Virus record (IMG/VR): IMGVR_UViG_3300028831_000315
Span: 1-37,199 of that record
Source of the DNA: a virus
DNA: 37,199 bases
Direction: 5' to 3' (one strand)
Shown here piece after piece: positions 1 to 35,692 of the stretch. The position numbers and the translations under genes are program-made. Numbering within the stretch: the stretch's first letter is position 1; every line of letters begins with the position of its first letter. The notes beneath the pieces are model-generated. The model searched no databases, was not told where the DNA came from, and saw nothing but the letters and a program-made list of their open reading frames with translations.

Positions 1-238
1 AGATGTTCCCCGAACGCCTGTCGCGGATCCCGGTACGCCTTCGCATACCAACGCGTGCCGTCTGCCGACTGACAGGTGCCGCCGGGATTCGACGCCATCT
101 GGTCGCCGACCCGCTGCGTCAGCAGCGGGTCGGCGACCAGATGGGGTCGAATCCCGGCGGCACCTATCAGTCGGCAGACGGCACGCGTTGGTATGCGAAG
201 GCGTACCGGGATCCGCGACAGGCGTTCGGGGAACATCT
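1..238. repeat. 117-bp foldback inverted repeat at the window edge
   Basis: Bases 1-117 are the reverse complement of 122-238 with a 4-base loop (GTCA, 118-121). I find two mismatches, at 94/145 and 73/166. The right arm is the genuine coding strand: it encodes the conserved start of a kinase-like domain (GSNPGGTY then WYAK). The left arm is therefore an antisense copy. A foldback of this kind at the very end of a contig is typical of chimeric amplification or assembly. A hairpin telomere would look similar but is unlikely, because the gene must have continued upstream of base 122. Confidence 0.93.
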
Positions 239-2162
239 GGCCACAACGCTCTTTCGTGACCTCGGGTTGAGCGTTCCGGAGTCGGTGGTCGGCCGCATGA
301 ATGGCCAGACGGTCTACGCGTCGCAGTGGTTGCCGGATGTGTCCGGCACGCTGTCGGATATCGGTCTCAATCAGCAGAATGCCGAGAAGATTCTTGATGG
401 GTTCGTGGCTGATGCCTTCACCGGCAATTGGGACGCGCTCGGCACGGGCGACGACAACATTGCCGTCCATTCTGACGGGTCGGTCTCGCGCATCGACATG
501 GGCGGGACGTTTCTCCACCGGGCGCAAGGGTCACTCAAGCCCGACCGGTTGTTGAACGACGTGGGCGAGTGGGAGTCGCTGCCGAGTTACGACGCGTACA
601 GTCGCGTCTTTGAAACGGCGGGGGTGGACGGCCCGGATGCGCTCGGCCCACGCGCGGTCAAGCAGATCGATGACATCCTCGAAGTGCGCCAGAAGGCTGG
701 ATCATGGCAGCACTACGTCGACAGCATCATTCCGCATGCCGATCCGGCCTATCGCCAGAAGCTCGGCGCGGTGCTCGAATCGCGCACGCGCTGGCTCGAA
801 CAGAAACGCGCGCAGTTGCTTCAGACCGACCCGACTGTCACCGTCCTGCGTGACGAGGCGGCGGCGCACCGGAAAGCATGGGACACGCGGGGTCGCAGTG
901 AACGCGACCGGCCCGTGCCGATCAAGGTCAACAAAGTCTCGGAGGCGATTCCGCTCATTCTCGCAGGCCACGTGGTCGAACTCCCGAACGTGCGCAAGGT
1001 CAACACGCTACTGGGCAAGCTCGCCAAACTCGCCAAGGAGGCGAAAGCGCGTGGCGAAGCGGCGCCCACCTACGACCTCTGCAAGGTGACGGTCCCGCAT
1101 ACGAACTTATTCTGCGAGAAATCGCTCGGCATTCCCCGGTTGGAGATGCCGCAGTTTCGTGGCGAAGCGATGCGCGGGACACCGGCCGATGCGCTCCCAC
1201 GTGATGAGAAGGGCAAGGTCGACGCCGGGCCAGAATTCATCGATTACTTGGAGAGTATCGGCATCGAGACGAGCAGCGAGAAGGTCAAAGTGTCAAGGCT
1301 GATGGCCAGTCAGTCGCAGCTCGATGGTCCACGGGTCGCCAAGATGCTGAAGAAGTTCGACGAGGACGGCAAGCGGCCCACGGCGCCGATCTTCATCTCG
1401 CGCGATAACTACATTATCGACGGCCATCATCATTGGGCCGCCGCCGTGGCGCATGACTCAGCCGACAATGCGCTTGGCGACATCAAGATGTGGGCGATTC
1501 GTGTGGATGCGCCCATTTCCGAAGTGCTCCAGCGCGCGAAGGCATGGACGAAACGGTTTGGCATCAAGCCCAAGACGACGACGGCAACGGTCGCCGCGCA
1601 CGATGACAGCCATTTTCTCAACTTCGCCACACGCGACGAGGCCGCGGCGCACCAGAAAGCGTGGGATACGCGAGGCCGGTCGACGGCGGAACATGCATCC
1701 AAAGTCACGAATGCGACCAAGACACATAAGCCCTCGACGCGCAGAAAGCAGCAGTGGGCCAAACGCAACGAGCAGGAAATGACTGACCTGCTGGGTGGGC
1801 AGGCCATTCATACCGACGATAATCGGCCCACGGATGTCAACTTCCATATCGGGACCGTGGTGAATGGCATCGAGGTGAAGACGCTGCTCGACAACTCGAA
1901 TTCAAAAATCACGATGCATCGTGAGTCACGTGAGCGCAAGTTGCAGTGGGCGAAAGAGCATGGCGCGATGCTGCACACGCTGGTGATTGATGATCGAAAT
2001 CGCTTCTCGGCGAAGACCGCTTCGACATGGAGTGGTCACCGCCTGTATTACCGTCGTGGCGTCGGGTCGTTTATGGTGCCCGGCAAGTTGATTCCGATCA
2101 AGTCAGCGGCGCATCTGCGACGGCTGATTGCCGCCGATCTGCCCGAACCGACCGAGGACTGA
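3..2162 (+). CDS. 5'-truncated three-module protein: kinase-like, ParB-like, PD-(D/E)XK-like
   Basis: The open frame runs from base 3, but codons before about 122 translate the artefactual foldback arm, so the true N-terminus is missing. Numbering from base 3, residues 48-170 resemble a HipA/PI-kinase-type fold: GSNPGGTY with K66, GNWD at 141-144, N152, and RIDMGG with D165. Residues 284-299 and 545-560 carry the same linker, DEAAAHxKAWDTRGRS. Between the linkers is a ParB/Srx-like domain with IIDGHHHW at 471-478. The C-terminal part has D611 and IEVK (E624, K626), then RKLQWA and LYYRRGVGSF motifs, which suggests a restriction-endonuclease-like fold. Repeated linkers between modules resemble the modular tails of phage MuF-type head proteins carrying toxin domains. 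A lost N-terminal head-morphogenesis domain is an inference. Activity is unproven. Confidence 0.8.
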   Translation: MFPERLSRIPVRLRIPTRAVCRLTGAAGIRRHLVADPLRQQRVGDQMGSNPGGTYQSADGTRWYAKAYRDPRQAFGEHLATTLFRDLGLSVPESVVGRMNGQTVYASQWLPDVSGTLSDIGLNQQNAEKILDGFVADAFTGNWDALGTGDDNIAVHSDGSVSRIDMGGTFLHRAQGSLKPDRLLNDVGEWESLPSYDAYSRVFETAGVDGPDALGPRAVKQIDDILEVRQKAGSWQHYVDSIIPHADPAYRQKLGAVLESRTRWLEQKRAQLLQTDPTVTVLRDEAAAHRKAWDTRGRSERDRPVPIKVNKVSEAIPLILAGHVVELPNVRKVNTLLGKLAKLAKEAKARGEAAPTYDLCKVTVPHTNLFCEKSLGIPRLEMPQFRGEAMRGTPADALPRDEKGKVDAGPEFIDYLESIGIETSSEKVKVSRLMASQSQLDGPRVAKMLKKFDEDGKRPTAPIFISRDNYIIDGHHHWAAAVAHDSADNALGDIKMWAIRVDAPISEVLQRAKAWTKRFGIKPKTTTATVAAHDDSHFLNFATRDEAAAHQKAWDTRGRSTAEHASKVTNATKTHKPSTRRKQQWAKRNEQEMTDLLGGQAIHTDDNRPTDVNFHIGTVVNGIEVKTLLDNSNSKITMHRESRERKLQWAKEHGAMLHTLVIDDRNRFSAKTASTWSGHRLYYRRGVGSFMVPGKLIPIKSAAHLRRLIAADLPEPTED
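852..899 (+). repeat. Inter-domain linker repeat, copy 1
   Basis: This encodes DEAAAHRKAWDTRGRS. It recurs almost unchanged at 1635-1682 (one residue differs, R to Q), 783 bases downstream and in the same frame. The two copies separate the kinase-like, ParB-like and nuclease-like modules, so they look like module boundaries. Confidence 0.85.
1635..1682 (+). repeat. Inter-domain linker repeat, copy 2
   Basis: Second copy of the 16-residue linker seen at 852-899 (DEAAAHQKAWDTRGRS). It lies between the ParB-like module and the C-terminal nuclease-like module. Confidence 0.85.
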
Positions 2163-2163
2163 C

Positions 2164-3714
2164 ATGTCGTTTTACTGTGCCGATGCCAACGGGTATCTCT
2201 CCGATGTGGCCTCAGTGTCCGGCCTCGATGACTTCGCGGCCGAGGCCGAGGTGCACGCGGGGCCGATTGCCGCGTTCGCCGAAGAAGGCTACACGGATGA
2301 CCCGGCCACGCTGGCGGCGCTGCTCGGGTCCGTCACCTTCTCGAACCCCTCAGCCGAATCGGTGCGACAGGCAATTGTGGCCTGCGCGCAACGCGCGGCC
2401 GATGTGCTGATTGTCAGTGATGGCACATCGGATGAGGAGGATCCCAACTTCGTGGATGACACGCCCGACATGTCTGCCCTCGCAGCCGTCACGCCAGTGG
2501 ACGCCCTGAGTGCGGAGGACCAACTGAATGACTATCGGTTGAATCTGGCGGTGCTCTCGCTGGCGGCGCGGGGCGCGCCCTGCGTGCCGGGTGACCCACG
2601 GCCCATCTGTAAGGCATGGGAGAAACGACGCCGCGCTAAAGAGGAGGCCGAGAAACAGAAAGCGGAAGGTGCACAACCGGCCCGCGCCCCGGCCCCGGTT
2701 CCAGCCCCGGCGCCTCCACCGGCACGGCCGGCGGAACCGCCACCGCGCCGCGCCCCGGCCGGTCGTGGTCAGGCCACACAGAACCGATTCGATGAATGGC
2801 GGCAGGCACGGGCAGCGCGACAGGCGAAAGAACCGCGCATCGAAGAACCCGCGCCGGGCGAGGCCGGCTATGGCAATCCGTATCAGGTGGTGCCGGCCGA
2901 GGCGCCGGGTGAGCAGACGCTCTCCGCGCCACGGCAAGTCGATACCAGTAGCACCGACCCGCTCGGCGGGGGCATCAACGAAAGCCTGCTGATCACGACC
3001 ACGGATGGCAACAAGTTCGTGTTCAAACCGGTGCAGGGCGAATCGCGTGGTGCTCGCGCCGACATCGATGAAGACCATGCCTCGGCGGCACAGCGGGAAG
3101 TGCTCGCCAGTCGTGTCGATAGAGCCCTCGGATTCGGGCTGGTGCCGAACACGGTCATGGCGGCCGCCGATCTCCACGGCTATGACGGGCGACATCGCCG
3201 CTATGGCAAGGACACTATCGGCGCCATGCAGCAATTTGTGCCCAATACGGGCCAGAGTTACAACGCCACCAGTCGGGCCGACCGCGCCCGCATGGGTATC
3301 TTTGACGCCGTGATTGGCAACCTCGACCGACACGGCGAGAACTATCTCGTCGCCCGAGACCCGAAGGGGAAGCTGATTGCTATCGACCATGGGCTGTGCT
3401 TTGGCAGGAGTCCCATCCAACCGGCGACGGAACGCCGCAATGCCTACGGTCGCGTGATCCGAGATAGGGGCGGTGTACGGTCTCTGCGCAGTTGGGCGTT
3501 GGCGGGCATCGAAGCGGGCGACCTCTCGCCCAATGAGCAGCGGGCGATAGCGGACAAGCTCGATGCGATGCCGTGGGACCAGATTCTCAAGGGCGCCACG
3601 CTCGATGAGGCCGAACGGTCAAGCCTCTTCGAACGAGCACGGCGCGTCAGTGACCATCTCAAGCGTGGGCAGGCCCACAAGATTCAGGCGGAGTTCAACG
3701 CCAGTGCCTACTGA
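2164..3714 (+). CDS. PI3/4-kinase / HipA-like phage protein (cassette 1 kinase)
   Basis: 516 aa. I chose the ATG at 2164, one base after the previous stop, over an in-frame ATG at 2128 inside the upstream gene. Residues 1-110 are an acidic helical region of unknown role. About 145-260 is a low-complexity linker with an AWEKRR motif, an Ala-Pro stretch and Arg-rich parts. About 265-510 is a kinase domain: VFKP with K288 as the likely nucleotide-binding lysine, a helix with AQREVLASRVDRALG, catalytic-loop-like GNLDRHGEN (N386, D388, R389, H390, N393), and IDHG with D408 as the likely metal ligand. This pattern matches the PI3/PI4-kinase-like and HipA-like families, whose members phosphorylate lipids or proteins. 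The substrate cannot be read here. The downstream 3975 gene is a paralogue. The position beside head genes suggests a virion-associated or ejected enzyme (inference). Confidence 0.85.
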   Translation: MSFYCADANGYLSDVASVSGLDDFAAEAEVHAGPIAAFAEEGYTDDPATLAALLGSVTFSNPSAESVRQAIVACAQRAADVLIVSDGTSDEEDPNFVDDTPDMSALAAVTPVDALSAEDQLNDYRLNLAVLSLAARGAPCVPGDPRPICKAWEKRRRAKEEAEKQKAEGAQPARAPAPVPAPAPPPARPAEPPPRRAPAGRGQATQNRFDEWRQARAARQAKEPRIEEPAPGEAGYGNPYQVVPAEAPGEQTLSAPRQVDTSSTDPLGGGINESLLITTTDGNKFVFKPVQGESRGARADIDEDHASAAQREVLASRVDRALGFGLVPNTVMAAADLHGYDGRHRRYGKDTIGAMQQFVPNTGQSYNATSRADRARMGIFDAVIGNLDRHGENYLVARDPKGKLIAIDHGLCFGRSPIQPATERRNAYGRVIRDRGGVRSLRSWALAGIEAGDLSPNEQRAIADKLDAMPWDQILKGATLDEAERSSLFERARRVSDHLKRGQAHKIQAEFNASAY

Positions 3715-3723
3715 GGGTTCGCA

Positions 3724-3978
3724 ATGCGTACGGTGACAGTCTATCGCTATCTTACGCCCGAGGAACGCGTCGAGATTGGGCGCGCATGGTTGATGCCGAG
3801 TGGCGTCGCCGCTGTTAGCGGATTCGATCCCACCGTGCGGGCGCATTACCAGAACGAAGGCATCATGGATTTCACGCAAGGGGATTTGGTGCCGATCCGC
3901 GAGGGCGCGCGATTCCTCGATACCTTGCTCGCGGACCATCAGCGGACCTACGTGCGCGCCGAAGAAAGCGACGAATGA
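3724..3978 (+). CDS. Small kinase-cassette partner, MRTV family (copy 1)
   Basis: 84 aa, starting at the ATG at 3724 with a GAGGG site just upstream. The sequence begins MRTVTVYRYL and has GRA, GF, GIMDF, VPI, EG, FLDTLL and YVRA in order. Each of these recurs in the protein at 5036, so the two are paralogues. The stop overlaps the start of the next kinase gene (ATGA at 3975-3978), which predicts coupled translation. I know no named family for it. Pairing of a kinase gene with a small MRTV protein twice in a row implies a shared job, perhaps a cofactor, inhibitor or structural adaptor. This is inference from arrangement only. Confidence 0.8.
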   Translation: MRTVTVYRYLTPEERVEIGRAWLMPSGVAAVSGFDPTVRAHYQNEGIMDFTQGDLVPIREGARFLDTLLADHQRTYVRAEESDE

Positions 3979-5030
3979 ACGCCTATCGTCTGCGCTTGCT
4001 CCAGCTCGCGGAGGTGCGTGGCGCCCCCAAATCGGGCGAGTCGTGGGGTGATGTGGTGCGCCGCGCATGGATCACGCGGCATCAGGGGCAGGCGCGCTTA
4101 CCGTTTGCGAGTGAACAGCCTGCTGGAGTCAATACCCCGACGCCGGTGCAAATCGAGGAGGCCGAAATTCTCGGCGAGGGGTCACACCTCAATAAGGTGT
4201 TTCATGTGACCGGCGCCGATGGCGCAGAAGGAGTCTTCAAACCGATCCGCGGTGAAGTGATTCGTGACGATTACGGGGACTTGGTGCGTGAACAAATCAA
4301 TCCCGACAACAGCGAAGCGACATTAGCTGAACGGGAAGTCCTCGCCTCACGGATTGATCAAGCACTCGGACTCGGGATTGCGCCCGAAACCATCATGGCG
4401 CGGACGTCGCTCGCGGAAGGTGCGGATAGCGATGACCGCGCGCTCGGTGTGGGCGCGCTCGCGCGCTTCCTCGACAACGATGGCCCCGACCAACAGCAGA
4501 TTTACTCGCATCCCCAGAATCAGGAACGGGCCGCGAAACTCGGGGTCTTCGACGCCCTCATCGGCAATCTCGACCGCCACGGTGAAAATTTCCTCATTGG
4601 GACCGATGGCAAGTTATACGGCATTGACCACGGGTATTCGTTCGGCGTGACCACACCGCTGACGGGGCCGCCCTCGGATGACGATGACAGTCCGCACTTT
4701 TCGGAACCGGAGTATGTCCGCAGTTGGGCACTGAGCAACATCAAGCAAGGCGATCTGTCGGCGGAGACACAGCGCGATTTAGCGGAACGACTCGATGCCG
4801 TGTCATGGAAGTCGCTGTTGCGCGGGTCCACACTGAGCGAAGAGGAGACGGACGCGCTCCATCAACGGGTCCAACTCGTCATTACGCTGCTCCACCGTGG
4901 CGAGGCCCATCGCATCAAAGAACACTTCTATACGACGCATGAAATCGAGCGGCCGGGGATGTCCCCGTCGGAGGCCTCCTTACCGTATTCCGATGCCGAC
5001 GACGAGGACGATGGGAGCTGGCAAGGATGA
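3975..5030 (+). CDS. PI3/4-kinase / HipA-like phage protein (cassette 2 kinase)
   Basis: 351 aa, overlapping the preceding stop by ATGA. Residues 1-60 are a basic helical leader. The kinase domain spans about 60-320: GVFKP with K89, AEREVLASRIDQALG, GNLDRHGEN with N198, D200, R201, H202 and N205, and IDHG with D218. A C-terminal acidic tail is rich in Asp and Glu. It is shorter than its paralogue at 2164 because it lacks the long Pro/Ala linker, but the core motifs align one for one. All residues expected for nucleotide and metal binding in PI3/4-kinase-like or HipA-like enzymes are present, so it is probably active. The target (protein, lipid or nucleotide) is not determined. The next gene starts inside its stop codon. 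Confidence 0.85.
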   Translation: MNAYRLRLLQLAEVRGAPKSGESWGDVVRRAWITRHQGQARLPFASEQPAGVNTPTPVQIEEAEILGEGSHLNKVFHVTGADGAEGVFKPIRGEVIRDDYGDLVREQINPDNSEATLAEREVLASRIDQALGLGIAPETIMARTSLAEGADSDDRALGVGALARFLDNDGPDQQQIYSHPQNQERAAKLGVFDALIGNLDRHGENFLIGTDGKLYGIDHGYSFGVTTPLTGPPSDDDDSPHFSEPEYVRSWALSNIKQGDLSAETQRDLAERLDAVSWKSLLRGSTLSEEETDALHQRVQLVITLLHRGEAHRIKEHFYTTHEIERPGMSPSEASLPYSDADDEDDGSWQG

Positions 5031-5035
5031 CCCAG

Positions 5036-5320
5036 ATGCGTACGGTGATCGTGCAGAAATATTTACGGCCGCGCCAAGCCACCGAATATGGCCGAGCCAT
5101 TCTCAATCCGGATGGCAGCGTGACGGTCCACGGGTTTCAGTCCAGCCGGCGCCACCAGTGGACGCGACAGGGGATCTATGACTTTCAGGCGAAGCGGTTC
5201 GTACCGCTGACGGAGGGCAACGCCTTTCTCGATGCGCTGCTCAAAGAGTTCAAGGGTGGCTATGTACGGGCGGTGGAGCAGTCGGCCGGCGCCGACGTGG
5301 GTGATACGACTCATCCATGA
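5036..5320 (+). CDS. Small kinase-cassette partner, MRTV family (copy 2)
   Basis: 94 aa. An ATG at 5027 overlaps the previous stop and would add MTQ. I prefer 5036 because the protein then begins MRTV exactly like its paralogue at 3724, and an AAGGA lies eight bases upstream. Shared positions include GRA, GF, GIYDF, VPL, EG, FLDALL and YVRA. The last residues diverge. The role is unknown, as for copy 1. Its 3' end overlaps the tail of a possible minus-strand gene (5250-5480). Confidence 0.78.
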   Translation: MRTVIVQKYLRPRQATEYGRAILNPDGSVTVHGFQSSRRHQWTRQGIYDFQAKRFVPLTEGNAFLDALLKEFKGGYVRAVEQSAGADVGDTTHP

Positions 5321-5792: not shown

Positions 5793-5821
5793 TAGACCTC
5801 CGCATGGCGTCTGCGTATAGT
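5793..5821 (+). promoter_or_regulatory. Sigma70-like promoter for the head module
   Basis: -35 TAGACC (four of six), 17-base spacer, -10 TATAGT (five of six). It lies in the 129-base gene-free stretch 5739-5867 and points at the protease/scaffold and capsid genes. The flanking CGTATAGT also occurs in the minus-strand promoter at 15755-15784. Confidence 0.55.
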
Positions 5822-5867
5822 GTGCGAACAACATGACCGTTGGCATTCGCATGGAGGTCACGTCGGC

Positions 5868-7343
5868 ATGAGCGCTGTCATTGACCGCGTGATTCTGTCC
5901 TATCCAACTTACTTGTCCGAGGCTGAGGTCACGACGCCGACCGCGGGCACCGCGCCGTCAAGTTGGGTACAGATCGCCAAGACGGGATCATTTGTCTCGC
6001 AGCGATATGGCCAGTTCTCGATTGAGCGCGAGGACTTGGCGCAAATGGTCCATAACTTTCAAAACGTCACGCCGAAAGCGCCGACCCGATTGCCGGTCGA
6101 CTACGACCACCTGTCGATGGACCCGCAACGGCCGGGCGATGGCGTAGCCGCCGGATGGATCAAAGAGCTGCAATTACGCCAGAACGGTGATGAGCTGTGG
6201 GCGTTGGTGGAGTGGACGCCGGAAGGCTCGGCCGCGATTCGGAATAAGCATTACCAGTTCGTCAGCCCATCCTTTGTCAAGAATCACATCCACAAGGATG
6301 GCCAGACCATTGGGACCACCCTGCTGGCGGCCGCCATTACCAATCACCCGTTCCTCGAAGGCATGGCCGCGTTGACGCTGAGCGCCGGCATCAAAGAGTT
6401 GGCGACGCCCGTCGACCTCGCTGACCCCGCGGATGGCAGTGCGCCGCCGGCGGAAGGCCCGACTGACCCTGTGACCGGGCCAGAGGAGGGTGTGGACGTG
6501 GAAGTCGGCCAACGCGTGACGGTTAAGGACGAAGAAATCCAGAAACCGGAGCAAATGGGCATCGTCTTCACCATCGCGCAAGTGGTGGGTGAAGGTGCTG
6601 ATGCGTTCGTCTCGCTCGAAGCCCCGGACGGCACGATTGCCGAGTGGTTCCGGGCGGACGAGTTGGCGCCGGCCCCTGCCGCGGAGCCCGAGCCACCCGC
6701 CGAACCCGTCCCTGCTGCCCCGCCCGCGATGGCCACGCCACCGCCGGTTGCTGCTGATCCTGTCCACGCACGGAGAACCGCCACTATGAGCGAGTACAAA
6801 CTGACCGACAACACGGGCAAAGAGATCACGCTCTCCGCTGATGTGCTGCAAGAGATCGTGGCCAAGGCTATCCCCGGACAGGTGCTGATCAAGTCGAGCG
6901 AGCTTGACGACCTCAAGGGCAAGGTGACGACCTTGAACACACAGGTCGACACGATGGCGAAAGCCGCGGCCGACGCCGAACAGCGGGCGCATACCATCGA
7001 GTTGACGACCCGGCTCGAAAAACTGTCGAAGGGCGGATTCATTCGCAAGGATGAACGGGACTGGGCCGTCGAGATGTGGAAGGACGCGTCGGACTTCGCA
7101 GCGTTCGACAAGTGGGCGGCGACGAAGAATACGCCCATCGTCAAACTCAACACCGAGCACGGTAGTGGGCTCGACAGCGCCACGACGCCGGGCGATGACG
7201 CGCAGGAACGTCTGATCTCGCTGGCGCACAAGATCCAGAAAGAAAAGCGGATTCCGTACAGCCGGGCACTGGTCGAAGCGAGCCGACAGGACGCCGACGC
7301 AGCGCGCAGTTATCAAAACCATATGCGGTCGCGCGTGCAGTAA
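5868..7343 (+). CDS. Mu-I-like head maturation protease with C-terminal scaffold
   Basis: 491 aa from the ATG at 5868, which has GGAGGT nine bases upstream. A longer frame from GTG 5820 is rejected because it overlaps the -10 box. Residues 1-185 match the Mu protein I protease group: VQIAKTGSF, LPVDYDH, AAGWIKEL, LWALVEWTPEG, and FVSPSF. This group cleaves the scaffold and itself during head assembly. Residues about 200-305 are an acidic, Pro/Ala-rich linker. Residues 307-490 are a charged, coiled-coil-prone scaffold-like region containing DDLKGKVTTLNTQVDTMAKA. The layout protease, linker, scaffold is longer than the 361 aa of Mu gpI. Directly downstream are the decoration-like and major capsid genes. 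Confidence 0.88.
   Translation: MSAVIDRVILSYPTYLSEAEVTTPTAGTAPSSWVQIAKTGSFVSQRYGQFSIEREDLAQMVHNFQNVTPKAPTRLPVDYDHLSMDPQRPGDGVAAGWIKELQLRQNGDELWALVEWTPEGSAAIRNKHYQFVSPSFVKNHIHKDGQTIGTTLLAAAITNHPFLEGMAALTLSAGIKELATPVDLADPADGSAPPAEGPTDPVTGPEEGVDVEVGQRVTVKDEEIQKPEQMGIVFTIAQVVGEGADAFVSLEAPDGTIAEWFRADELAPAPAAEPEPPAEPVPAAPPAMATPPPVAADPVHARRTATMSEYKLTDNTGKEITLSADVLQEIVAKAIPGQVLIKSSELDDLKGKVTTLNTQVDTMAKAAADAEQRAHTIELTTRLEKLSKGGFIRKDERDWAVEMWKDASDFAAFDKWAATKNTPIVKLNTEHGSGLDSATTPGDDAQERLISLAHKIQKEKRIPYSRALVEASRQDADAARSYQNHMRSRVQ
6786..7343 (+). CDS. Possible nested scaffold product (internal start)
   Basis: An in-frame ATG at codon 307 of the protease gene (MSEYKLTDN) has GGAG ten bases upstream, at 6772-6775. 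It would produce the scaffold part alone, 185 aa. Phage Mu makes its scaffold (gpZ) from an internal start in gene I in the same way, and lambda does likewise for Nu3 inside C. The site is visible; its use is inference. Confidence 0.5.
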   Translation: MSEYKLTDNTGKEITLSADVLQEIVAKAIPGQVLIKSSELDDLKGKVTTLNTQVDTMAKAAADAEQRAHTIELTTRLEKLSKGGFIRKDERDWAVEMWKDASDFAAFDKWAATKNTPIVKLNTEHGSGLDSATTPGDDAQERLISLAHKIQKEKRIPYSRALVEASRQDADAARSYQNHMRSRVQ

Positions 7344-7987: not shown

Positions 7988-8914
7988 GTGCCACTCACCA
8001 CCGATATCAAATACGACAAGGTTCTCACGAACATCTCGATCCAGTACCAGCCGGCACCGGATGGTTATCTGGCCGACATGGTGCTGCCGCCTGTGCCGGT
8101 GGCGGTCGAGTCCGGGATCTACTGGACGTACGACAGATCCCGCTTCGATGTGCCCGACTCGAAGCGCGTCCCACGGTCGGAATACAACCGTGTGGATTGG
8201 AGCGCCACGACCAATCACTATCTCACCCAACAGTACGGTCTGGAAGGGGAGATTGATGATCAGGAACGCAAAGTGGCGTCGGCGCCGCTCGACCTCGACG
8301 TCGACACGACCGAAATCGTCACCGATATGGTCCTGAATGGCCGCGAGAAGCGGATCGTGGATCTGGTGATGGACACCTCGGTCGTGACCCAGAACACGAC
8401 GTTGCTGGAGCATTCGCAGTGGAGTGACTACAGCAACAGTGACCCGCGCGATGACGTCAAGACCGCGCGCAACACCATCTTCGCCGCCACCGGGTATCGG
8501 CCGAATCGGATGGTGATGGGCTACATGGTGTACGAAGTCCTCAAGCTGCACCCGGCCATTGCCGAAGTCATCAAGTACACCGAGCGCGCCATCGTCACCA
8601 AACAGCTCTTGGCGACGCTGTTTGAAGTCGACGAGGTGATGGTCGGTGGCGTGCTGCGCCGGACCAGCAAAGAAGGCCGCCCGGACGTGCTGACGGACGT
8701 CTGGGGCACCAGCGTCCTCATCTACTACGCCGACACCGCGCCGTCGCTGAAGCGCGCGTCGTTTGGCTACCAGTTGCGCGAAGAAGACCTGCGGGTCTTC
8801 CGCTACCGCGAAGACAAGCGCGATGTCGATGTCATTCGCGTCACCGAAAAACAGGCCGAGCAGATCGTGGCCCCGGAGCTTGGCTATCTGATCGCGGAAG
8901 CCATCGCGTCGTAA
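7988..8914 (+). CDS. Major capsid protein
   Basis: 308 aa with a GTG start at 7988 and AAGGAG seven bases upstream. The start region (SIQYQPAPDGYLADMVLPPV) and the middle (PNRMVMGYMVYEVLKLHP, LLATLFEVDEV) are typical of the HK97-fold major capsid proteins of the gpE-like group that accompany Mu-I-like proteases. The end (FGYQLREEDLRVFRYRED) fits the surface domain. There is no long N-terminal scaffold segment, in line with a separate scaffold supplied by the 5868 gene. The strong ribosome site suits a very abundant protein. It forms the icosahedral shell. Confidence 0.87.
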   Translation: MPLTTDIKYDKVLTNISIQYQPAPDGYLADMVLPPVPVAVESGIYWTYDRSRFDVPDSKRVPRSEYNRVDWSATTNHYLTQQYGLEGEIDDQERKVASAPLDLDVDTTEIVTDMVLNGREKRIVDLVMDTSVVTQNTTLLEHSQWSDYSNSDPRDDVKTARNTIFAATGYRPNRMVMGYMVYEVLKLHPAIAEVIKYTERAIVTKQLLATLFEVDEVMVGGVLRRTSKEGRPDVLTDVWGTSVLIYYADTAPSLKRASFGYQLREEDLRVFRYREDKRDVDVIRVTEKQAEQIVAPELGYLIAEAIAS

Positions 8915-14373: not shown

Positions 14374-14761
14374 CCTGAAGGGTCCGACGAGTCCGTTCCT
14401 GTCTGGCGCGGCGCGCGTACCATGTCCGCCAGTGGCCGCCACTGGCCTCATGTTTGGCGAGGCTCTCGCCGGCCGCGGTGAGTCGATACTGACCGTCCGC
14501 ATATTCGACCTGACCGGCCTGTTGCAGCTTCCATAAGGCCGAGCACATCACGTCGAAGCGGCCTCGATTGATTCGAACTTGCAAGCTCAGGGGCTGTCCG
14601 TGTCGATTGACCGGGCGGCGGGTATGGCGCCGATAGGTGACGAGAGCGACATTCGGCGCAATCAGTTCTTCACATTCGGCCAACAACGCCTGTGAGGGCG
14701 ACGGCCCGAGTCGCCACAGCGCCACGCGCAAGGCCGTGCTGATGCCACGTCCACGAATCAT
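14342..14761 (-). CDS. Putative winged-helix protein
   Basis: 139 aa. The ATG at 14761 overlaps the stop of the ParB-like gene (ATGA), so the two are one operon. Residues 1-60 contain two helices (ALRVALWRLGPSPSQALLAE). Residues 65-105 (FDVMCSALWKLQQAGQVEYA, then DGQYRLTAAGESLAKH) look like a helix-plus-wing with the TAAGE pattern of winged-helix domains. The last 30 residues are very basic. DNA binding is likely; the target is unknown. Confidence 0.65.
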   Translation of the reverse strand: MIRGRGISTALRVALWRLGPSPSQALLAECEELIAPNVALVTYRRHTRRPVNRHGQPLSLQVRINRGRFDVMCSALWKLQQAGQVEYADGQYRLTAAGESLAKHEASGGHWRTWYARRARQERTRRTLQVKRRQGPDAA

Positions 14762-15732
14762 CGCGCTTTCTGTTTCGTCTCAAGGGCGGCAGTCACTTGC
14801 TTCAACATCGTATCCACCAGCTGCCGCATCCGGTAAAGATACTGACGCATCTTCGTGAGTTCCGCGACCGGCAGGGCGCGGAAGTTGGTGCCGACTTTCA
14901 AGAGATTCCGTTCGAACTGCTGCACGCGCGTGAACAGGCTGCGCACCGGCGAGGCGGCGGGCCGCACCTTCCCGGCCACGCTCTCCTGAATCTCATGGGC
15001 GAAATCCTGTCGCCATTTCTTTAAGGTCGCGGTCGCGGCGACGTCTGAAGTGGCTGAGTTGACGGCGGCGACGAGTTCTTTGGTCTGGTCGGCGGTCATG
15101 CGGGCCTCAGACGCCAACTTGATGGCGTCGATGAAATGCGCGTCCCGCTGGATCTTGCCGAGTTCGCGGCGAAAGCCTTCCGGCATATTGAGGGTGTCGG
15201 GATTGATGCCGGCCCGGCGGAGTCGTTTATCCGCTTCGAGCAGCCGCAGTTTTCGATAGAGCAGGTCCGGTTCCAAGTTGGTCAGACGCGCGGCGTCGAC
15301 GGGGCTGTAACCGTCCTGCACCAGCAAGACCGCCTGCTGCAACCATTCCTCCCGTGACAATGGTTCGCCGTTCAGCAGATTGAGCAGACGACGAATCACA
15401 TTGATCTGCACGATGTCATCGGGTTTGACGTCCACGACATAGCAATCGATCTCCGGTCGCTTGAGGCTGTCGAGGGCACGGTAGCGATGCATGCCGCCGA
15501 GCATGCCGTAGCCGGCCTGACGCCGATAGACCACCAGCGGCGGAAACTGCGCGCCACTCTGATAGGCAATGGCGTACTGGTGCACGCGTTCCATATTCAA
15601 GGGATTGTTCAGACGGATGTTCCGTTCGGCCTCGGGATCGATCACAATCTCCTTGAGCCGAATCTTCGGCTCGTAGCCGAAGACGAACCGGCGTTCTGCG
15701 AACCATCCTTCAAGAATGCTGTCTCGGGCCAT
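14758..15732 (-). CDS. ParB-like nuclease-domain protein
   Basis: 324 aa, with GAGGAGG three bases before the ATG at 15732. Residues 22-110 are a ParB/Srx N-terminal domain: FPPLVVYRR, then GGMHRYRAL at 79-87, the motif that binds CTP or catalyses phosphate chemistry in this fold. Residues 115-165 contain a helix-turn-helix-like stretch (SREEWLQQAVLLVQDGYSPV, then AARLTNLEPDLLYRKLRLLE). The C-terminal half is helical and charged. It resembles phage and plasmid ParB-like regulators rather than chromosomal ParB, and no parA or parS-like site is visible. Transcribed from the near-consensus promoter at 15755-15784, it could act as a phage regulator or a modifier of DNA. Confidence 0.8.
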   Translation of the reverse strand: MARDSILEGWFAERRFVFGYEPKIRLKEIVIDPEAERNIRLNNPLNMERVHQYAIAYQSGAQFPPLVVYRRQAGYGMLGGMHRYRALDSLKRPEIDCYVVDVKPDDIVQINVIRRLLNLLNGEPLSREEWLQQAVLLVQDGYSPVDAARLTNLEPDLLYRKLRLLEADKRLRRAGINPDTLNMPEGFRRELGKIQRDAHFIDAIKLASEARMTADQTKELVAAVNSATSDVAATATLKKWRQDFAHEIQESVAGKVRPAASPVRSLFTRVQQFERNLLKVGTNFRALPVAELTKMRQYLYRMRQLVDTMLKQVTAALETKQKAR

Positions 15733-30000: not shown

Positions 30001-30692
30001 TTGTTGCGCAGTGGAACACGCACCATTCCGGCGTTGGGAGCGATGGCAAGCTGAACCCGGAACACATCGCCGACACCCTCGCCATGCTGAACGCCGATGT
30101 GGTCTGCCTCCAAGAGGTGGAACGCTTCACCGGCTATGGCAATTTCGACCCACTCGATAAGTGGTGCAAGCTCCTTGGCGCCAACTGGTCCGGGTACTTC
30201 TGCACGCTCACCGGGCATCTTGATGGCAAAGGGCCGGGCATCATCATCATGTCGCGGCTTCCGATGGAGCTGCCACAGGCCAAGGGACTCGTCGCGGGTC
30301 GGGCCATCCTCACCGCGAACATTGGCGGGCGGCTCATTGCCTGCACTCATCTCGACAACGTGTCGGCGAGTACGCGCAACATCGAAGGCACGCAGATCAA
30401 TTGCTGGCCCGTGGTCAATCAGGCGAGTCCGGCGATTCTCTGCGGCGATTGGAATGCGCAGACGAACACCGTGGAACTGGCGCCGTTCGGGGCGTGGTAC
30501 CGCGACGCGTGGGCGGAGGGCGTCAAGACTGGGCTGGCCACGTCGTTCAACGGCACCGGGAATACCCGGAACACCCGCATCGATATCGTCTACTACCGCG
30601 GCCTGACGTTGAAGCATGTCAATGTGCCGGACACGCGGATCAACGGCGTGTTTCCGTCTGACCATCATCCTGTGGTCGTGGAGTTTGCCTGA
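29997..30692 (+). CDS. Endonuclease/exonuclease/phosphatase (EEP) family enzyme
   Basis: 231 aa from the ATG overlapping the previous stop; the longer frame from 29913 is antisense-like upstream. All EEP motifs are present: WNTHH with N7, LQEVE with E40, ACTHLD, GDWNAQ with D151 and N153, TRIDIVYY, and SDHHP with D222 and H223. Members hydrolyse phosphodiester or phosphate-ester bonds: DNase I, AP endonucleases, sphingomyelinases and inositol-polyphosphate 5-phosphatases share the fold. The exact substrate cannot be read. No signal peptide is seen. Lying in the middle of the tail-tip genes it may be virion-carried (inference). Confidence 0.88.
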   Translation: MIVAQWNTHHSGVGSDGKLNPEHIADTLAMLNADVVCLQEVERFTGYGNFDPLDKWCKLLGANWSGYFCTLTGHLDGKGPGIIIMSRLPMELPQAKGLVAGRAILTANIGGRLIACTHLDNVSASTRNIEGTQINCWPVVNQASPAILCGDWNAQTNTVELAPFGAWYRDAWAEGVKTGLATSFNGTGNTRNTRIDIVYYRGLTLKHVNVPDTRINGVFPSDHHPVVVEFA

Positions 30693-31753
30693 TGGCGTTT
30701 ATTCATTGCGAAGGCTTCGATCAGATGACGGTGAGTCCGACGAACATCACGGAGCTGGCCTTGGAGTACCTCTCACCGGGTGGCAGCACATTTTGGGACT
30801 TGCCGTACACCGGGTCGACCTATGCGCGGCACGGCGTCGGCAAAGGCATCAAGATATACGACCAGCTGGGGCTCATTGTCTCGCCACGGTCCTCCTTCGT
30901 GGAAGGGTTCGCGCTGTATGTGGATGCGAGCGCGCCACAGCCCGGGACGGTTGCCTCGCTGTGGGATGACGCCGGGGCCCGGGCGCAACTGGTATTGACG
31001 ATCAATGGCGACAATTCAGTCAGTGTCTATCTCGGTGGCCTGCTGCATACGTCACCATCCGGGTCGCCGCTCGCTACGAGCGACGTGAACAAGATCCGGC
31101 AGCGGACGTGGATGTTTATCGAATGGAAGGGCGTGATTGACCCGACCGCTGGCAGTGTCACCGTTCGTGTGAACGGGGAGACCGTGGTCGACGTCTCGGG
31201 CATCAATACCCGGAGTACGGCGAATTCGACCTATACGACCGCGTACTTGGCCAACCCCGGCGTCGCCTGCTGGACCGATGACTGGTATTTGCTCGATCAG
31301 GATGGGCTCAGTCTGAACGACTTTCTCGGGGACATCGTGGTCGAGGATCAACTGGCGCTCGCTGGCAACGGCCACTACACGGAATTTACGCCATCGACAG
31401 GCAGCGACCACGGCGCGATGGTCGATGACCCCACCTTCGATGGCGATGACACCTACAACTGGTCGCTGACCCCGGATGTCCGCGACACGTTTGTTTTTCC
31501 GGCCATCACACGTCTCGACTCGGTGGATGCGGTGCGGTTAAGTCTGACCGCGCGCAAGGAAGGGTATGGCACGCGCGCCATCGCCGGCCTCGTGCGGTCA
31601 GGCACCGGCGATGCCACCGATAGCGTGGACCATTATCTCGCGCTGGGCTATGAGGATTATGACGTGCGACTGCCGGTGAATCCCGTGACGAGCACGGCGT
31701 GGAGTGTCGCCAGTGTCGATGCCGCGGAACTCGGCGTGAAAATCACGGTCTGA
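30692..31753 (+). CDS. Lectin-like tail surface protein, family 1 (copy 1)
   Basis: 353 aa, ATG overlapping the previous stop (TGATG). Two beta domains: residues 1-200 of concanavalin A/LamG type (FVEGFALYVDAS, then WMFIEWKGVIDPTAGSVTVR), and a second half with DDWYLLDQDG, NDFLGDIVV, STGSDHGAMVDD, DDTYNW and AELGVKI. The same series occurs in the genes at 33541 and 34661. Likely exposed on the virion as a carbohydrate- or surface-binding protein; the ligand is unknown. Confidence 0.75.
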   Translation: MAFIHCEGFDQMTVSPTNITELALEYLSPGGSTFWDLPYTGSTYARHGVGKGIKIYDQLGLIVSPRSSFVEGFALYVDASAPQPGTVASLWDDAGARAQLVLTINGDNSVSVYLGGLLHTSPSGSPLATSDVNKIRQRTWMFIEWKGVIDPTAGSVTVRVNGETVVDVSGINTRSTANSTYTTAYLANPGVACWTDDWYLLDQDGLSLNDFLGDIVVEDQLALAGNGHYTEFTPSTGSDHGAMVDDPTFDGDDTYNWSLTPDVRDTFVFPAITRLDSVDAVRLSLTARKEGYGTRAIAGLVRSGTGDATDSVDHYLALGYEDYDVRLPVNPVTSTAWSVASVDAAELGVKITV

Positions 31754-33540: not shown

Positions 33541-34644
33541 ATGGCACTTCTGCATACCGAGTCATTCGATTGGTGTACCTCGCTGACGGCGTTAGGGACT
33601 CGGTACGACTCAATCAGCGTCTCTGGTCTCGGGTCGTCCTACGGCCGCACCAATAATGGCTTGTTCATTCAAAGCTACACCCGGTACCTCACGACACGCG
33701 CCCTACCGGCGAGTGGTACCACGTGCATCATTGGTGTGGCGCTCAAGATCACCGATCTCGTCGGCCGCGGCGGTCAGCCCGGGTTGTTCTCGATCATCGA
33801 GGGCACGACGGCGCATCTCACGTTGGTCATCGACAGCACCGGCCATCTCGTCCTGAAGCGTGGCGATTACACCGGAACCACCCTCGGCACGTCGTCTGTC
33901 ATCCTCTCGATGAATGTGTTCTTGTACTTGGAATTGAAGGCCGTCATCCATGACACAACCGGTTCGTACACCGTCCGGGTGAATGGCACGACGTTTGGCG
34001 GCCTGACTGGATCGAGTATGGATACGCGAAATGGCGGATCGGGCACATGGGATCACGTCACGTTAGGTGGCTCGCTGGAGAACGGCTACCAGTATTACGA
34101 CGATTGGTATATCTGCGACGGGTCGGGCTCCGTGAACAATGATTTTCTTGGCGATATTCAAATACGCTGCATCTTGCCGCAGACGGATGCTGTCGGTGGC
34201 ATCGGGTCGAGTGCTCAGTTTGCCTTGTCCACCGGGTCCGATCAAGGCGCACTGGTCGATGAGGCCGAACCGAATGGTGACACCGATTATGTCTACGACA
34301 CCACCGCTGGCCATGCGGTGACCTTCAACTATCCAGCCGTGGGCATCAACGGCACTGTCAAAGGGCTGACGGTGCTGCCCTACCTCAAAAAGACGGACGC
34401 CGGGGCGCGACAGGTGACGACGGTGGCACGCGTGAGCGGGACGACCTACGACGCTGGCAGTTCGATCTCGCCGGAGACGAACTACGTCTGTCAGCCCCAA
34501 ATCTGGGAGCGCAGTCCGGCCACCAACAGCGCGTGGACCGTGAGTGAAATCGACAGCGCCGAATTCGGCTTGAAAATTACCGATCCCATTGGCGTGCCGT
34601 TGTTGGCCTCAGCCACGACGCTTTATACACCTACGGTGAGTTAG
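33541..34644 (+). CDS. Lectin-like tail surface protein, family 1 (copy 2)
   Basis: 367 aa, GAGGA upstream of the ATG. Order of segments follows copy 1: TESFDW start, LELKAVIHDTTGSYTVRVNG, DDWYICDGSG, NDFLGDIQI, PQTDAVGG, STGSDQGALVDE, DTDYVYD, FNYPAVGI, KKTDAGARQVTTVARVSG, AEFGLKIT. It is nearest to the next gene and more distant from copy 1, so the family has expanded in stages. Confidence 0.8.
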   Translation: MALLHTESFDWCTSLTALGTRYDSISVSGLGSSYGRTNNGLFIQSYTRYLTTRALPASGTTCIIGVALKITDLVGRGGQPGLFSIIEGTTAHLTLVIDSTGHLVLKRGDYTGTTLGTSSVILSMNVFLYLELKAVIHDTTGSYTVRVNGTTFGGLTGSSMDTRNGGSGTWDHVTLGGSLENGYQYYDDWYICDGSGSVNNDFLGDIQIRCILPQTDAVGGIGSSAQFALSTGSDQGALVDEAEPNGDTDYVYDTTAGHAVTFNYPAVGINGTVKGLTVLPYLKKTDAGARQVTTVARVSGTTYDAGSSISPETNYVCQPQIWERSPATNSAWTVSEIDSAEFGLKITDPIGVPLLASATTLYTPTVS

Positions 34645-34660
34645 GCACGAGGACCACGCG

Positions 34661-35692
34661 ATGTTGCTCTGGACGGAATCATTTGATTTGGGCTCAGTCT
34701 TCACCAATCGTTATGCCAGTTACAACTACGCGGGCTTAGGTGTGCCTTCGGGAGGAACTGCCCGCACGGACAAAGCCTTCCTCGTCAACAATGGCGGCAA
34801 TCATGTACAGACGGGCGCCTTGGTGCCCGGCAGCACCACCGCAATCGTGGGAGTCGCTTTCTGGACGAGCGCCTTTGGCACGACCGCCCACTTGATCGAG
34901 GTGCGCGAAGGGTCGACGGCCCATTGCACGTTGTACCTTGATGCGTCTGGATATTTGAAGGTCTATCGAGCCGGGTCCACGCTGCTCGCAACCTCCTCGG
35001 TGCCATTGACCACCTACTGCTGGTATTACGTCGAATTCAAGGTGACGGTGCATGACACGGCCGGCGAATTCACCGTGCAGGTGGACGGGTCGACGTTCGG
35101 TGGCTTGACCGCGAGCAGTCAGGACACCCGCAATGGCGGGACCGGGCAGTGGGACACGATCCGGCTCAATGGCTACGGCGGCAACCAAGCGTTCGATGAT
35201 TTCTACATCTGCGATACGGCGGGGAGCTACAACGCGAATTTCCTCGGGAACACGAAGATCAAGGCCGTCGCGCCGCAAACCGATGCGGTGGGTGGAGCCG
35301 GTGGCCATCAGGACTTCACCTGTTCGACCGGGACTGATCATGGCGCGCTTGTGGATGACGCCACCGGGGCCAATCCCAATGATGATACGGATTACGTCAG
35401 TAGTTCGACCGTCAATCAGATCGATACCTTCAATTACGCCGCCCTCGGTATCACGGGATCAATCGCCGCCGTAAATGTCATGCCCTATCTGCGGAAGACC
35501 GACGCGGGCGCCCGTACCGTGTCGACGGTGGCGCGCATCAGCAGCACTGATTATGTGTTCGGAACGAGCTTCACTCCACCTACCTCGTACGTGCATCGAG
35601 GGCAGATTTGGGAAACCAATCCAGCCACGACCAATCCATGGGCCGTCAGTGAGATTGACGCCGCGGAATTCGGCGTGAAAATCATCAGCTAG
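34661..35692 (+). CDS. Lectin-like tail surface protein, family 1 (copy 3)
   Basis: 343 aa. Same segments as the preceding gene: WTESFDL, VEFKVTVHDTAGEFTVQVDG, TFGGLTASSQDTRNGG, DDFYICDTAG, NFLGNTKI, PQTDAVGG, STGTDHGALVDD, DDTDYV, FNYAALGI, RKTDAGARTVSTVARISS, AEFGVKI. The N-terminal half differs most, as expected if it carries the binding surface. Confidence 0.8.
   Translation: MLLWTESFDLGSVFTNRYASYNYAGLGVPSGGTARTDKAFLVNNGGNHVQTGALVPGSTTAIVGVAFWTSAFGTTAHLIEVREGSTAHCTLYLDASGYLKVYRAGSTLLATSSVPLTTYCWYYVEFKVTVHDTAGEFTVQVDGSTFGGLTASSQDTRNGGTGQWDTIRLNGYGGNQAFDDFYICDTAGSYNANFLGNTKIKAVAPQTDAVGGAGGHQDFTCSTGTDHGALVDDATGANPNDDTDYVSSSTVNQIDTFNYAALGITGSIAAVNVMPYLRKTDAGARTVSTVARISSTDYVFGTSFTPPTSYVHRGQIWETNPATTNPWAVSEIDAAEFGVKIIS

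Follow-up and report, generated by a model that had tools for sequence, protein, structure and literature searches.

The stretch of DNA analysed here (the window) is the whole 37,199-base viral record IMGVR_UViG_3300028831_000315, which encodes the head and tail module of a tailed phage, with a head protease, a major head protein, a neck protein, tail proteins and a 3,731-aa tape measure. Just upstream of the head protease lie two kinase genes and two small partner genes, which form a tandemly duplicated cassette (Table 1). A sequence-only reading of the window had pointed to this arrangement as a duplicated unit of a PI3/4-kinase/HipA-like enzyme and a small partner beginning MRTV, with the second copy joined by ATGA overlaps, and our analysis confirms the observation. 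The joins from partner 1 to kinase 2 and from kinase 2 to partner 2 are both ATGA overlaps, and the MRTV of partner 2 follows an initial MTQ.

Table 1. Features of the window discussed in the text
Feature	Coordinates	Strand	Description
Gene 1	3-2162	+	Start probably missing at the contig end; divergent kinase-like domain at about 123-870, region matching phrog_2859 (aa 357-549), unassigned C-terminal region
Kinase 1	2164-3714	+	516 aa, TGA at 3712; ~240-aa N-terminal region of unknown type with Ala/Pro-rich linker, then C-terminal PI4K-II/Fam20/HipA-fold kinase domain (about 2860-3636); K288, E312, D388, N393 and D408 intact
Partner 1	3724-3978	+	84 aa (MRTV...), small alpha+beta protein without known relatives
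Kinase 2	3975-5030	+	351 aa; kinase domain about 4095-4871
Partner 2	5027-5320	+	97 aa; homologous part from the MRTV at 5036
Head protease	5820-7343	+	Mu-like prophage I / head maturation protease (PF10123 E 1.4e-26, phrog_328 E 4.8e-29)
Major head protein	7988-8914	+	phrog_1005 E 5.9e-78
ParB-like partition protein	14758-15732	-	On the opposite strand inside the tail module
phrog_2448 genes	30692-31753, 33541-34644, 34661-35692		Three paralogous genes of unknown function in the late region

The two kinases are 38% identical over 287 aa (BLASTP E 4e-54) and the two partners 46% identical over 81 aa (E 6e-23), far beyond chance. The motifs VFKP, GNLDRHGEN and IDHG are present in both kinases, and the Pfam profile PF00454 scores above its gathering cut-off in both (41.1 and 37.7 bits against 27.1; E 2.5e-10 and 2.7e-9), whereas the small proteins match no family in Pfam, PHROGs, NCBIfam or PADLOC. 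In addition, gene 1 carries a further domain, shared with Gordonia, Pseudomonas, Morganella and other phages, which aligns to the kinase profile with a profile-profile probability of 91% and keeps a Lys, a D/N loop and a DxGG motif, so that probably three kinase-like genes stand in a row.

Regarding the nature of the kinase, a profile of 22 relatives matches Fam20 (E 4e-11), PI4K type II (E 2e-10) and Vps34 in the PDB. A model of kinase 1 and partner 1, obtained by reading through the TGA with partner 1 in the same frame, matches PI4K-II and Fam20 by fold (Foldseek E 5e-10 to 4hnd and 5e-8 to 4kqb), with the Helicobacter kinase CtkA further down (E 3e-5). Thus the kinase has the PI4K-II/Fam20/HipA fold, although the nearest solved structures are PI4K type II and Fam20 rather than HipA. 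The same read-through model gave pLDDT 87 and pTM 0.77, which is compatible with an interface but no proof of one. The partner itself is a confidently predicted 84-aa protein, with a mean AF2 pLDDT of 96.5 on 33 sequences and with strands and two helices. No PDB match to its model was found at E <= 0.001, and only two uncharacterised phage proteins come near in BFVD (E 0.007 and 0.03). A weak profile match to EF-Tu (E 0.1) is treated as chance.

To see how general the pair is, we searched viral contigs for relatives. Single-protein and two-sequence scans of viral sequences and genomes found nothing because their patterns were too narrow, but a scan with an alignment of six diverse kinases gave 65 loci and a second one 80 (loci from our searches carry the prefix L below). 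Across these, 113 non-redundant kinase domains were found, of which 65 have a profile-recognised partner directly downstream, mostly overlapping or within 50 bases, 44 do not and 4 are cut off. The partner profile found 111 hits among 15,933 ORFs of these loci, all beside or within 1.5 kb of a kinase: 105 lie directly downstream, and the other six are directly upstream with an ATGA overlap (L041, same contig as L165), convergent and adjacent (L190), a second tandem partner (L048) or 1.4 kb downstream (L024, same contig as L176). However, these loci were mostly fetched by the kinase, and the independent tests are therefore the searches started from the partner. A viral scan of this kind gave eight loci, seven with the kinase just upstream and one chance match, and in 200 genomes of one actinobacterial order the partner profile hit three, two with the kinase directly upstream and one truncated orphan.

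Several of the kinases without a recognised partner have a small ORF of another type in the same place. A second type of small protein, ending in a GWSNGY-like motif, sits in the downstream slot of other phage kinases (L042, L062, L066, L067, L045, L032), but its homology with the MRTV family is not shown (probability 19%). A mixed small-protein alignment including the HCTV, pMLP1 and plasmid neighbours was uninformative.

The catalytic residues never vary in 63 pairs (K 61/61, E 62/62, D 63/63, N 63/63, D 62/62), and the kinase domain ends within 60 aa of the stop in 56 of 63. In relatives it stands behind portal proteins (L010, phrog_146 E 4e-54; L019, PF05136), MuF (L011, L020), gp7-like head morphogenesis protein (L059), XkdF protease (L025) or Phage_min_cap2 (pMLP1), and one MuF-kinase gene (L015:3925-6681) is interrupted by an intein with an endonuclease-like domain. 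Four other contigs carry tandem cassettes (L028, L048, L052, L205), and arrays of three to six kinase domains of this family occur in one contig (L048, L052, L062, L045, L085), L085 from Allokutzneria having six within one open frame of over 4,100 codons. Moreover, the divergence of kinase and partner correlates (Mantel r 0.48, maximum of 2000 permutations 0.13), though this may reflect shared phage ancestry alone. On the other hand, 13 of 69 partner domains continue into the next protein, two of them into the next kinase (L052).

The pair is not confined to phages. Actinobacteria carry kinases with an overlapping or adjacent partner (L082, L083, L086, L140) in type-VII-secretion-like settings, with WXG100/EspB-like neighbours and an EspC-like N-terminus, although these matches are weak and below Pfam cut-offs, and one large protein (L084) has two kinase domains ahead of an EndoU nuclease tip. 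The actinobacterial partners are homologous to the phage ones (probability 94%, E 8.6e-8). There are also acidobacterial proteins (L089, L093, L098, L099) that join what looks by eye like a metallophosphatase N-terminus to a kinase domain of this family.

Several known systems come near. Enzymatic domains grafted on MuF, portal or other head proteins and predicted to be packaged and injected have been described as MuF-fused effectors or polyvalent proteins (PMC5512222, PMC3482391, PMC9503650). The kinases in the first two are a Ser/Thr/Tyr-superfamily group lacking the C-terminal subdomain, lantibiotic-type or zeta-type kinases, and in the descriptions consulted none is PI4K-II/Fam20-like and none has this partner. 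In the HipBST toxin-antitoxin (PMC10627512, PMC9325769) a HipA-fold kinase is neutralised by a small protein encoded beside it; there, HipS appears to correspond to the HipA N-terminus and to lie upstream of the kinase, with a DNA-binding HipB in the operon, while here the partner lies downstream and has no solved-structure match. PI4K type II and Fam20 kinases (PDB 4hnd, 4kqa) share the fold and catalytic motifs (sequence profile E 3e-10 and 4e-11), but at about 18% identity or less and in a eukaryotic context, and the substrate is not predictable. Among phage families, phrog_3162, and phrog_37179 + phrog_28432 (the HCTV-6 'phosphatidylinositol kinase' and its neighbour), show a kinase of the same superfamily with a small overlapping downstream gene in the head module; they are annotated by name only or not at all, and the HCTV-type small protein is only suggestively related (probability 58%). 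The SCO1664 family (TIGR03843) comprises actinobacterial relatives of the kinase domain, against which the window kinases score 44 and 51 bits, far below the 172-bit cut-off. No paper describing this pair was found among open-access publications, so that a description elsewhere is possible.

The sequence-only reading had proposed a retained pair of kinase and partner in a phage head region, and this claim is supported and generalises. Of the roles it suggested, virion-delivered host modification is supported indirectly by the fusion of relatives to head proteins, and phosphorylation of virion proteins is not excluded. Our preferred explanation, which we hold only tentatively, is that each cassette encodes an intact kinase belonging to the phage head module and a small dedicated protein that binds and controls it. 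The kinase is most likely carried in the virion and acts in the newly infected cell, modifying a host protein or small molecule, while the partner most likely holds the kinase inactive while it is made and assembled, working like the immunity protein or antitoxin of a polymorphic toxin. Packaging and delivery, physical binding, inhibition rather than activation, and the substrate are all inferred. The C-terminal position of the kinase domain, followed by a small cognate gene, is the layout of a polymorphic toxin with its immunity gene. However, the continuation of some partners into the next protein fits a co-packaged module better than a simple cytoplasmic immunity protein and makes pure immunity uncertain. 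Moreover, in the window itself the N-terminal part of kinase 1 is not a recognised head protein, and kinase 2 is nearly stand-alone.

Other explanations seem individually less likely. The partner could be an activator, obligatory cofactor or substrate-presenting subunit of a two-subunit enzyme acting in the virion or in the host, in keeping with the strict pairing, the correlated divergence and the fusions, which show that both can sit in one polypeptide; yet many related kinases have no recognised partner, and the layout in the type-VII-like loci resembles toxin and immunity. We consider this explanation unlikely. Only slightly less probable is a loading chaperone that brings the kinase domain into the procapsid or keeps it soluble without regulating catalysis, as the position next to the head protease and the fusions to portal, MuF and protease proteins might suggest, but the same partner family accompanies kinases next to type-VII-type genes, where no capsid loading is needed.

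It is more doubtful still that the kinase is not delivered but phosphorylates virion or host proteins late in infection as an assembly or maturation enzyme. Its position beside the head protease and major head protein would agree with this, whereas the patchy distribution, the varied fusion partners and the tandem copies are unlike a core assembly factor, and no close relative was found in 50,697 phage records. Least likely of all is an ordinary HipBA/HipBST toxin-antitoxin or a defence module carried as cargo. The kinase fold is shared with HipA/HipT, and there are weak matches to PADLOC PDC-M03A (E 2e-5), but no HipB-type family match exists among the genes between 1 and 7343, the partner model has no PDB match at E <= 0.001, and related kinases are fused to head proteins.

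What is already known is the existence of head-fused phage effectors, and what would differ here is the type of kinase and its dedicated partner. In a wider view, which we regard as about as likely as not, this would be a previously undescribed, widespread two-gene system of tailed phages, in which PI4K-II/Fam20-like kinases are carried on head proteins into the host, each with a cognate regulator of a new fold, multiplied as tandem cassettes and shared with actinobacterial secreted toxins. The finding would add kinases of the PI4K/Fam20/HipA fold, each with its own control protein, to the list of enzymes that phages are thought to carry in their heads. It gives a context to a small protein family absent from all family libraries searched and to PHROGs of unknown function, and it links phage virion effectors with actinobacterial secreted toxins.
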